DNA of 64,000 nt. Source: Alterileibacterium massiliense (GTDB taxonomy: Bacteria; Bacillota; Clostridia; Peptostreptococcales; Anaerovoracaceae). Positions within the stretch are counted from its first letter, which is position 1; each line of letters opens with the position of its first letter. The translations under genes were made by a program, and so were the position numbers. The stretch covers positions 193,765 through 257,764 of the forward strand of contig NZ_FNWE01000001.1 in the NCBI RefSeq assembly GCF_900104645.1, read 5' to 3'. Shown in pieces: positions 57,270 through 61,412 of the stretch. The notes under the pieces were generated by a model, which did no database searches, was not told where the DNA came from, and saw nothing but the letters and a program-made list of their open reading frames with translations.

Positions 57270-57318
57270 ATGTTTTAAAGGGAGAAATATAGAATTATAA
57301 TAATATGAAATATTATTG

Positions 57319-57342
57319 ACCCTATAAAGGGGTTATTTTTTT
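57319..57342 (+). terminator. Weak terminator candidate
   Basis: A short ACCC/GGGT stem is followed by TATTTTTTT. Confidence 0.4.
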
Positions 57343-57492
57343 AGCAAAATTTTGGCAAAATATCAATTTATCCAACATAAAGAAGTCGAAGAAAATGAAA
57401 TTAAAATTAAACATAAGTATCAAGATTATTAGAAGATTTACAAACAAGAAATTATGAAAAAATAATGGTTGGTATAGCGGATAAAATAATTG

Positions 57493-57523
57493 TTGACAAA
57501 AAACTATTGGGGGGGGGTACAAT
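57493..57523 (+). promoter_or_regulatory. Promoter with a nine-G run in the spacer (possible phase switch)
   Basis: TTGACA (57493-57498) and TACAAT (57518-57523) enclose a spacer of 19 bp containing nine consecutive G (57509-57517). Two fewer G would give the optimal 17 bp. Slippage at such tracts is a known phase-variation mechanism. It lies about 50 bp upstream of the lipoprotein gene. Confidence 0.7.
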
Positions 57524-57571
57524 AAAACTGTGAATTTTTAGTGTATTTTTAACAAAATTATGGAGGAGAAA

Positions 57572-57919
57572 ATGAGCAGAAATAAAAAAAGAGTATTAGG
57601 TATTCCAATTGCGTTAATACTAATATTTTTTACTATAACGCTTTACGGATGTGGGGATGAATTTTATATTGAAGGAAAGTGGAGGAGCGTAGGAGATGAG
57701 GGTTTTGGACAAGCTCAGCCTGGAGCAATAGTAGTTTTTGATGGAAAAAATTGCAATCTATTAAGCCCTAACGATACATATTCATTATCAGATGATAATG
57801 GTGAATACAAATTATATGTTACGGGGTTACTTGGCGGAAATGTAACTTTTAACATTACTTTAGAAGACAATGATCATATTATACTTAATGATAAAACCGA
57901 ATTGGAAAGAATCGAATAA
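57572..57919 (+). CDS. Small lipoprotein
   Basis: A 115-residue protein with signal peptide and lipobox TLYGC (Cys in residues 25-30). The mature part has a beta-rich pattern: EGKWRSVGDEGFGQ, GAIVVFDGKNC and LEDNDHIILNDKTELERI. It may bind a ligand at the cell surface; unnamed. ATG 57572 follows GGAGGAG; ATG 57560 would lie inside the ribosome site. It is the first gene after the poly-G promoter and precedes the lipase-VWA gene group. Confidence 0.65.
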   Translation: MSRNKKRVLGIPIALILIFFTITLYGCGDEFYIEGKWRSVGDEGFGQAQPGAIVVFDGKNCNLLSPNDTYSLSDDNGEYKLYVTGLLGGNVTFNITLEDNDHIILNDKTELERIE

Positions 57920-57987
57920 TAAACGAATTACATTTATTCAATTGTCTATTCAATTATATACTTTAATGATAAAAAGGGGGAAATCGT

Positions 57988-58458
57988 ATGACTTTCGTAA
58001 TATTAGTTGGCATTATAATTGCTCTTTATATCTATATTAATTATATAAAAGTTAAGAATGACGAGGAGCTGGGGAAAATTATAAAAAGAGAAAAGAATTT
58101 TATTGATGAGAGAGAAATTTTTTCAAGCAAAACTCTCGAATGGGAAGAAATCAAAAAATCACTTGATGAGCTTGATCTATCAGAGATAAAACGCTTGAAA
58201 GTAACCAAATATGATAATTATTATAAATATAGTCAAGATTATGTAAAATACGGATGGATTGCAATATTTGAATATATTGGTAAATCGGATAATATATCAA
58301 GGTATCAATTGTATATTTCATCTTATCGCAATGGAGGAGTTGAGCATTATATAAACATGCTTTTTACAGCCATTGAAAAAATGTTAATAGAATTAGATCC
58401 GGATATAGAGGTTAGAAAAGAGGTAATTAAACGGAAAACAAAGAGATCGTTCTTTTAA
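57988..58458 (+). CDS. Membrane-anchored hypothetical protein
   Basis: A 156-residue protein with an N-terminal membrane helix (TFVILVGIIIALYIYI) and a charged soluble part with EEIKKSLDELDLSEIKRLKVTKYD and ISSYRNGGVEHYINMLF. Not recognised. AAAAAGGGGGAAATC precedes the ATG. It lies between the lipoprotein and the lipase-VWA gene, likely in one operon; a weak internal promoter before it (TTGTCT...TATACT) is possible. Confidence 0.5.
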   Translation: MTFVILVGIIIALYIYINYIKVKNDEELGKIIKREKNFIDEREIFSSKTLEWEEIKKSLDELDLSEIKRLKVTKYDNYYKYSQDYVKYGWIAIFEYIGKSDNISRYQLYISSYRNGGVEHYINMLFTAIEKMLIELDPDIEVRKEVIKRKTKRSFF

Positions 58459-58493
58459 TAAATATTAAAAAAATATAAGAAAGGAATATAGGT

Positions 58494-58679
58494 ATGTATT
58501 TTTTAGCATTTTTAATAATATTAGGCATTGTATTGGGGCCAACATTACTTGAATATATCGGTGATAAAATTCATGATTCTTATAAAGACAGTAAGCAACA
58601 TAAGTTAGCCGATGAAAAGAATGAAAAATACGAACAAGAAGGTGGAACAAAGTTATCTGATAGATATAATAAAAAATAG
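58494..58679 (+). CDS. Small membrane protein of 61 residues
   Basis: One N-terminal hydrophobic helix (LAFLIILGIVLGPTLLEYI) and a charged cytoplasmic or external tail. Behind AAAGGAATATAGGT. It starts 35 bp after the previous gene and ends 12 bp before the lipase-VWA gene. No family recognised. Confidence 0.5.
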   Translation: MYFLAFLIILGIVLGPTLLEYIGDKIHDSYKDSKQHKLADEKNEKYEQEGGTKLSDRYNKK

Positions 58680-58691
58680 GAATTTAATCTA

Positions 58692-61181
58692 ATGTATAAA
58701 TCTTATATGAAAAACAATAATGATGAATCTCGCAAATTATTTTTGTGTGCCATAGGCTTTTTGTTAATAATAGCGATTTATTCGGTGCAACTGTTTTTGC
58801 ATACAAGTAATGTAATCACAGAATTGGCTTCTATGGATATACCACATTTGTCAGTTTTATTGTTGATATTTTGTTTTTATAACACTCTTCCAATTATTCT
58901 TTCACTGATTGGATTAAATATAATAAAAAACTGTATAGTTAAGGACATTGAAAAAAAGTCCAGCATTAAAATCATTTCTATTATGATGATAGTTGTAGAA
59001 ATAATTTTAATTTTTGCATATATTGCTAAAGAATTTCATTTTATTAAAGCTGACATAAATAACGCGATTGAGGTTATTGTGAAGTACAATGTCTTTACAC
59101 CCATTTTAGTTATTTTTATATTGATTTCAATAATCTTCCTTTGCTCCAAAAATGTGAATAAGATTGGTTTTGTCATTTCAATAATAAGTGCTACATTTTT
59201 GTTTGCGTCATTTTTTGGAATAGAAAATATAAATGCTTCTTCAGATAATCTTAGCTTAAATGGTGAGATTTTCTCGAAAAAATCATATCAATACGACAAC
59301 AGAATAGCTGATGTTACAGCTTATCTATGCGAAAAAGCGGGATCAAGAAATGATTCATCTATTAAAGATGCTTATGATAAGTTTGGGCTAAAAGACATTA
59401 AAACATATAATTATGATTGGGATGAATTAAATGAGCTGGATATTCTGAGTCAGAATGCTTATTCATTTGGACATAAGAGCATAAAAGTCGATGGAGAAAA
59501 AACAGAAGAATTGCTTGTAGTTACGGCACGAGGGTCGGTAAAGCTGAGAGAATATATTAAAGATTATATAAAAGGCGATGAAATAGATTTTTTAGATCAG
59601 AAAGTTTATGAAAACACATATGATTTTTATTCTGATATTTGCAAGAATTTAGAGGACTATATTATTGATAATAAGTTAAATGAAGAAGACAGTGTTAAAA
59701 TTCTTGTTACAGGATATAGCCTTGGGGGAGCGGCAGCAAATCTAGTAGCAGCAGATCTTAAATACAATGCTTATCAACTTGGTTTAAATATTTCGACGGA
59801 TGATATATATGCTTACACATTTGGTGCAATTAAAACCTTGACAACGGATGATAATGTTTCTTTGGGATATGAATATATTCACAATATATATAATATAAAT
59901 GATTCATTTGGACCAAATGGTAATCTGAGCTATTTTAATGCCAGTTCGCCCAATTCAAAATTTGGACATACTGATCTTTATGATCTTGGAGAAGAAAAGC
60001 ATAAAGAGGATGGATTATCTACAGCAAATCATAATATTGCAAATTATAGAAATGATATAACCAATGGAAAAGTAAAATGCCTACTGAAAAAAGAAAATAA
60101 AAAATATAATAAAGATGTCTCATTAGCACTTGATGTTTCAGGCAGTATGGAAGGAGAGCCTTTAGAGGAGCTAATAAAGGCATCTAATAAATTTTGTGAA
60201 AAAATTTCAAATAGTCATGTGCCTTTAGGAGCATGCACATTTTCTTTTCATGCAACAATAGCTTCTTCAAGTTCTACTGAATATAGTAAGATTAAAAAGT
60301 CTCTATCGGAACTAAATGCTGATGGCGGTACTAATATTGAAGAAGCGTTAACAATGGCGGCTTCAAACAATAGTGCAATGACAAAGAAACATATAATAGT
60401 TCTTATGAGTGATGGTAAACCGACAATAGGTTTGTCTGAAGAGGAGCTTATTGAATATGCCAATGACCTCAGAGAAAAAGGTTATCTTATATATACGCTT
60501 GGCTTTCTAAGCGAATTAGAAAATAAAGAAAGTGCAGCTGATGTTTTGCGTGGCATTGCAAATGAAGGATGTTATTTCGAAGTAAGAAATGCCAATGACT
60601 TAAAATACTTTTTCGAAGATATAGCTGCTCAGGTTAATGGCGAAAAGTATTTTTACATTAAGATAGAATGTCCTGTAGATGTAAGTGTATCTCATGATGG
60701 TTCTAAGCTTTCTTCTGTTGATAATCAAAGAGAACAGCATACTAAATTTGGGTCACTAACTTTTGAAGGAGAGGGACCATCAAATACAAAGGTTCTAAGA
60801 TTAAAAGAAGGGTCGGATTATGACATTAAAATAGAGGGAACTGGCAATGGAAGTATGACTTATTCGATAGGCTTCATGGATGATGATGGTGAATATTCTG
60901 ATATTAGAAGCTTTGAGAATATCGAAATAAATAATTCAACACAGGTTAATACTAAAGCCAAGGTTGGTAGTGAAACAAAAATGTATGTGGATAATGATGG
61001 AGATGGAAAAGCCGAGAAAGTCTATGTAGCTACAGAGAATAATAAGGCTAAATTGGTTAACAACTCAAGGGTATGCTGGCTGATTTTTATAGCATATATG
61101 TTATTACTCATTATTCCGACTTCTATTTGGGTAAGAAGATCTGTAAAGCAAGTAAGGAATTTTTATAAGGAAAGAGTTTGA
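58692..61181 (+). CDS. Membrane protein with class 3 lipase-like and von Willebrand A domains
   Basis: A protein of 829 residues in an unusual order. Five membrane helices lie within residues 13-185. A lipase class 3-like alpha/beta-hydrolase domain follows, with nucleophile motif GYSLGGAAA near 341. A von Willebrand factor A domain has the MIDAS motif DVSGSMEG near 481 and LMSDGKPTIG. A C-terminal beta-rich stretch with VDNDGDGKAEKVYV precedes a last helix (WLIFIAYMLLLIIPTSIWV) and basic tail. The extracellular part could bind and act on lipid or matrix. It is the last gene behind the poly-G promoter. Confidence 0.7.
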   Translation: MYKSYMKNNNDESRKLFLCAIGFLLIIAIYSVQLFLHTSNVITELASMDIPHLSVLLLIFCFYNTLPIILSLIGLNIIKNCIVKDIEKKSSIKIISIMMIVVEIILIFAYIAKEFHFIKADINNAIEVIVKYNVFTPILVIFILISIIFLCSKNVNKIGFVISIISATFLFASFFGIENINASSDNLSLNGEIFSKKSYQYDNRIADVTAYLCEKAGSRNDSSIKDAYDKFGLKDIKTYNYDWDELNELDILSQNAYSFGHKSIKVDGEKTEELLVVTARGSVKLREYIKDYIKGDEIDFLDQKVYENTYDFYSDICKNLEDYIIDNKLNEEDSVKILVTGYSLGGAAANLVAADLKYNAYQLGLNISTDDIYAYTFGAIKTLTTDDNVSLGYEYIHNIYNINDSFGPNGNLSYFNASSPNSKFGHTDLYDLGEEKHKEDGLSTANHNIANYRNDITNGKVKCLLKKENKKYNKDVSLALDVSGSMEGEPLEELIKASNKFCEKISNSHVPLGACTFSFHATIASSSSTEYSKIKKSLSELNADGGTNIEEALTMAASNNSAMTKKHIIVLMSDGKPTIGLSEEELIEYANDLREKGYLIYTLGFLSELENKESAADVLRGIANEGCYFEVRNANDLKYFFEDIAAQVNGEKYFYIKIECPVDVSVSHDGSKLSSVDNQREQHTKFGSLTFEGEGPSNTKVLRLKEGSDYDIKIEGTGNGSMTYSIGFMDDDGEYSDIRSFENIEINNSTQVNTKAKVGSETKMYVDNDGDGKAEKVYVATENNKAKLVNNSRVCWLIFIAYMLLLIIPTSIWVRRSVKQVRNFYKERV

Positions 61182-61241: not shown

Positions 61242-61385
61242 CATCAATATTTTTTAGTTCACTACGCATATGCAGGAACTGGTGAAATTGATGAAACTTT
61301 AAATAAATTTTCTATGGATGAAGAAAATTTAGATAGTGCATTACAATGTATAGAAGCACTATGTAAAGATAAAAAAATGCCATAA
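61242..61385 (+). pseudogene. C-terminal gene fragment
   Basis: A frame without start reads HYAYAGTGEIDETLNKFSMDEENLDSALQCIEALCKDKKMP and ends at 61385, followed by a terminator. It looks like the end of a real gene whose front was lost. Family unknown. The rest of 61186-61591 shows nothing else. Confidence 0.35.
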
Positions 61386-61412
61386 TTGATGTAACAATTA
61401 TGGCAATTTTAT
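61378..61412 (+). terminator. Terminator behind the gene fragment
   Basis: TGCCATAATTG pairs perfectly with CAATTATGGCA, followed by ATTTTATT. Confidence 0.8.

Follow-up and report, generated by a model that had tools for sequence, protein, structure and literature searches.

The best-documented cases of homopolymer-slippage phase variation come from Neisseria, Campylobacter, Helicobacter and Treponema, and discussion of gut bacteria usually centres on DNA inversion. The closest described systems carry the tract inside the promoter itself: in Neisseria porA, fetA and opc, homopolymers lie between the -10 and -35 elements (PMC2791445), and in Treponema tp0126 the spacer is poly-G and transcription is reported to be optimal at 17 nt (PMC7864442). 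In Neisseria meningitidis porA, and likewise fetA, the homopolymer sits in the promoter spacer of a surface-protein gene, where each one-base change shifts the spacing (PMC2791445, PMC7864442). The promoter described here shares this layout, although it comes from a low-GC bacterium of another phylum, precedes a multi-gene lipase-VWA operon instead of the gene for an outer-membrane porin, and is read from one assembled sequence. Treponema pallidum tp0126 likewise has poly-G between -35 and -10 (PMC7864442), whereas its gene and taxon are unrelated to ours, and a spacer of 17 bp would here need G7 while the assembled allele is G9. Among Gram-positive gut commensals, sortase-dependent surface structures of Bifidobacterium breve are reported to be governed by a replication-slippage ON/OFF switch (PMC9187656). 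The mechanism is already known, and the promoter at 57493-57523 as read here would add a further case of it; in the literature searched, we found no survey of homopolymer-slippage promoters in gut Firmicutes.

Promoter anatomy and downstream operon

The features of the locus, numbered within the window (the whole 64-kb stretch of DNA that was analysed), are as follows.

57317..57335, + strand: terminator-like hairpin (7 pairs) with a T-run (TTTTTTT tail), closing the upstream gene
57493..57498, + strand: -35 element TTGACA, 6/6 match to consensus
57499..57517, + strand: spacer of 19 bp, AAAAACTATT-G9, of which 10 bp are non-tract
57509..57517, + strand: poly-G tract of nine G adjoining the -10 element; proposed slippage site
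57518..57523, + strand: -10 element TACAAT, 5/6 match to consensus
57572..57919, + strand: first gene, 115-aa lipoprotein (signal peptide, lipobox LYGC, ribosome-binding site GGAGGAG just upstream)
57988..58458, + strand: 156-aa protein with one N-terminal membrane segment or anchor, without Pfam match
58494..58679, + strand: 61-aa protein with one N-terminal membrane segment, without Pfam match
58692..61181, + strand: 829-aa membrane protein with Lipase_3 and VWA domains (profile matches, motifs, hydropathy)
61378..61405, + strand: bidirectional terminator-like hairpin after the operon

The preliminary description had placed TTGACA and TACAAT around a 19-bp spacer with nine G, and this is exact: the whole promoter (57493-57523) reads TTGACA-AAAAACTATT-GGGGGGGGG-TACAAT and matches the consensus at 11/12 positions, a score with a chance of ~0.2% per AT-rich position. 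The G9 tract lies entirely within the spacer, whose final nine bases are all G, and by simple arithmetic G7, G8, G9 and G10 give spacers of 17, 18, 19 and 20 bp. A standard promoter scan misses this promoter because it allows only spacers of 16-18. The same scan returns a second, poorer promoter-like match at 57437-57466 (TTTACA-18-AATAAT), which could drive transcription independent of the tract, though such matches are at chance level; promoter-like matches are generally no commoner in this AT-rich region of the window than in shuffles.

The hairpin at 57317-57335 parts the upstream gene from the lipoprotein/membrane/lipase-VWA operon, whose genes all run in the same direction up to the terminator at 61378-61405. 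The start of the lipoprotein is best set at ATG 57572, with GGAGGAG upstream, ~48 bp downstream of the -10 element. In the 829-aa protein, both domains are above the Pfam cut-off, with Lipase_3 at residues 276-383 (E 4e-10; GYSLG, a GxSxG motif) and VWA at residues 475-642 (E 5e-16; DVSGS, a DxSxS motif), and fungal triacylglycerol lipases are distantly similar in sequence (E 3e-6). The protein has 4-5 N-terminal membrane segments and one C-terminal segment. Judged from hydropathy only, five N-terminal spans would put the lipase and VWA domains outside, as the Lys/Arg-rich N-terminus and C-terminal tail imply by the positive-inside rule. The lipoprotein signal and membrane segments of the operon products predict an envelope location, and a surface role of the lipase-VWA protein is suggested. 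The operon is as first described, a lipoprotein, two membrane proteins and a membrane lipase-VWA fusion.

Relatives of the 829-aa protein were not found in viral contigs, and those in the family are partial, within differently built proteins. The stretches read around these family relatives hold no run of at least 8 G, and so offer no orthologous promoter whose tract length could be set beside that of G9. The relatives searched included no same-genus genome, and no second allele of the G9 locus was found among them.

Long G-runs in the window and genome

Runs of G or C in the 64-kb window number 120 at length 4, 17 at length 5, one at length 6, none at lengths 7-8 and one at length 9, so that the nine-G tract is the sole run of at least 7 G. 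The counts drop about seven-fold per added base, by which ~0.007 runs of 9 are expected; a shuffle estimate for this run is inflated, as the tract itself is part of the shuffled sequence. Examined by pattern searches and by reading the sequence around the tracts, the genome assembly (1.45 Mb, two contigs, 89% complete) has 6 G/C runs of exactly seven and 15 of at least 8 (six of 8, six of 9 and three of 10), a clear excess of long over seven-base runs that is the reverse of random decay. For each of the 15 runs we scored the best -35/-10 pair that keeps the tract inside a spacer of 15-20 bp. A score of at least 11/12 occurs at 0.1% of random and 0.2% of AT-rich positions, and 4/15 tracts score 11 or 12 of 12 where ~0.03 are expected (binomial p about 1e-8 to 1e-7). 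By these counts the G9 promoter is not a product of chance. When inspected by eye, none of the six seven-G runs is clearly placed in a promoter.

The four top-scoring tract promoters are the site at 57493-57523 and those at C1:204597, C1:206408 and C1:457853. The preliminary description understated this point, as the sequence places the promoter in a set with at least three more members in the genome. These and further tracts of the source genome are listed by contig position.

C1:204597: tandem-pair promoter, G10, spacer 19
C1:206408: tandem-pair promoter, G9, spacer 18
C1:457853: tract promoter, G9, spacer 19
C1:106102, C1:24948, C1:291865: weaker candidate promoters, scoring 10, 9 and 9 of 12 (a box score of 9/12 is common by chance)
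C1:35155: coding tract G8, signal peptide and secreted protein in different frames
C1:109003: coding tract G10, signal peptide and secreted protein in different frames
C2:100975: coding tract G8, frame open
C1:288962: coding tract G8, frame open
C1:381693 (L161:2155-3193): G9 in a type I restriction specificity (Methylase_S) gene, frame stops just past the tract

The promoters at C1:204597 and C1:206408 (L159) are near-identical poly-G promoters of tandem paralogous surface-protein genes. Three coding tracts (C1:35155, C1:109003 and C2:100975) lie inside or just past the signal peptides of secreted anchored proteins, and three tracts break reading frames (C1:35155, C1:109003 and C1:381693). 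At C1:381693, another tract length would extend the frame into a further Methylase_S domain, making this tract a candidate phase-variable methylome switch; phase-variable type I restriction specificity genes are a known system, and the present G9 inside Methylase_S resembles them, but it is a separate locus from the 57493-57523 promoter and would act on translation, not transcription. The tracts at C1:419778 and C1:425428 had no convincing promoter placement on the forward strand. The G9 at C1:419778 lies between divergent genes, and on the opposite strand TTGATT-18-TAAAAT faces a small membrane-protein gene, possibly as a C-tract promoter.

Most tract-associated genes in the source genome encode secreted proteins. 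Many of these have a C-terminus like that of sortase substrates, with a TGD-type motif followed by a hydrophobic stretch and a basic tail, and some carry Rib, G5, Cna_B or Listeria-Bacteroides repeat domains. Across all loci collected here and counted regardless of relatedness, the first gene encodes a hydrophobic N-terminus after 71/99 (72%) G-tract promoters and after 8/37 (22%) ordinary consensus promoters at the same loci (p 1.5e-7, uncorrected for relatedness).

Tract lengths and spacers in related promoters

Over the 40 bp that follow the tract, the promoters at C1:204597 and C1:206408 are nearly identical, but one has G10 and the other G9. Eight further related pairs in other genomes also differ by one G, namely those within L108 (9/8), L045 (9/8), L106 (10/9) and L083 (10/11), and those between L062/L090 (9/10), L073/L108 (10/9), L180/L188 (8/9) and L104/L109 (10/11); tract lengths are equal in the L082 pair and in L182/L192. 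Closely related promoters usually differ in tract length by one, which is evolutionary rather than within-culture evidence.

A 17-bp spacer is rare among perfect-hexamer G-tract promoters (7/101; loci L036-L115 and L155-L197), partly owing to the search requirement of 8-9 or more G. That requirement does not account for the dip among promoters with G9 only, where spacers of 16, 17 and 18 bp were found 13, 4 and 13 times. Ordinary perfect promoters at the same loci peak at 17 (11/20). Assembled majority alleles may possibly sit off the spacer optimum.

In the family, 297 genomes were surveyed with the pattern TTGANA-N3-11-G8-N0-6-TANAAT, and its reversal served as control. This gave 28 sites in 18/297 genomes versus 0 for the control, and the source genome was the richest, with 4 sites. 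One genus of the family (g91) repeatedly has TTGACAAAAATGTAT-G9-TATAAT or a close variant of it, in which the tract adjoins the -10 element as it does in the window. With a stricter pattern across the phylum (398 genomes), there were 5 sites and 0 for the control.

Proposed switch and alternative explanations

We consider it highly probable, from the sequence comparisons above, that the G9 promoter is a slipped-strand, spacer-length switch for transcriptional phase variation of a surface operon, and that the locus is one of a contingency set of G-tracts in the genome, most of which would control cell-surface proteins. Slipped-strand mispairing during replication would add or remove single Gs in the tract; each gain or loss would shift the -35/-10 spacing by one base, stepwise; and the spacing would set the strength of a housekeeping-sigma promoter for the lipoprotein/membrane/lipase-VWA operon. 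In porA and tp0126 the spacing sets transcription, with 17 nt reported as the optimum; by that rule G7 would be strongest here, G8 moderate, G9 weak and G10 weaker. By this analogy the assembled G9 allele (19 bp) is probably weak or OFF, and G7-G8 alleles should be strong or ON. Against this reading, a poly-G length taken from one assembly may be a sequencing error. Transcriptional slippage was considered and is unlikely from position, with the tract upstream of the expected start. The original proposal of a candidate phase-variable promoter is supported by the recurrence of the design in the genome and family with a reversed control of 0, by near-identical promoters one G apart, by sibling tracts that leave surface genes either in frame or frameshifted, and by two published precedents with the same anatomy (PMC2791445, PMC7864442).

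The promoter could instead be a fixed, non-switching one, weak at 19 bp, in which the G-run sets a constant low level. A single allele of the locus is known, and the genome encodes MutL, whose mismatch-repair role may hold slippage down; both points would suit a tract of constant length. Such tuning does not explain the genome-wide excess of long G-runs, several of which break reading frames, or why near-identical promoters in the source genome and elsewhere stand exactly one G apart, and we regard a fixed tract as unlikely. A G-tract that serves chiefly as a regulator binding site or through DNA shape, with regulation rather than slippage as its main function, is very unlikely. This explanation draws on tracts outside the spacer that act via regulators in other species (PMC2791445; opc is discussed in PMC7864442), for which the distal tract of nadA with NadR is the comparison case (PMC2791445). 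Yet among the promoters collected here the distance from tract to -10 ranges from 0 to 6 bp with the tract still inside the spacer, and tracts occur within coding regions too, so a length-based effect fits better than a positioned operator.

A chance G-run or an assembly artefact beside a chance promoter match is the least probable explanation, and we give it hardly any weight. In its favour, promoter-like matches in this AT-rich region are in general no more frequent than in shuffles. Against it stand the 28 versus 0 sites across the family, the near-perfect boxes at 4/15 tracts and the recurrence of the design in numerous separate assemblies. For the slipped-strand switch, the sequences show the anatomy, its non-random character, its recurrence in genome and family and the length differences between near-identical promoters, and from these slippage as the cause, the ON and OFF lengths and the surface role of the lipase-VWA protein are inferred.

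Occurrence in other lineages

A further scan, with each species represented by a single genome, gave at least 119 stretches, 80 of which were kept. The scan had no built-in control, and some matches, above all those in GC-rich genomes, will have arisen by chance. Among the matches listed, most are in metagenome-assembled genomes of gut Clostridia and Bacilli, and Saccharibacteria, Candidatus Ancillula, Streptobacillus and Helicobacter are also represented. The survey suggests that surface-protein promoters under slippage control have a scattered distribution among gut Clostridia and Bacilli and in further lineages. A broader proposal has two parts: that promoters with a poly-G spacer are a widespread kind of phase switch, for the most part undescribed, in uncultured gut Clostridia and Bacilli as well as elsewhere, and that the source organism's at least four such promoters, with its coding tracts and restriction-specificity tract, are a repertoire diversifying the surface and possibly the methylome. 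Taken jointly, we hold this tentatively, at somewhat less than even chances. The sequence by itself is enough to recognise G-tract promoters, and metagenome reads that already exist could directly reveal their state.

One genome of Candidatus Ancillula sp. JAIRWY01 has promoters with G9-G13 spacers on five contigs (L039, L061, L076, L084 and L112), which suggests another multi-locus repertoire in an unrelated lineage. In Streptobacillus notomytis (L083), two nearby paralogous secreted-protein genes have spacer promoters with G10 and G11.
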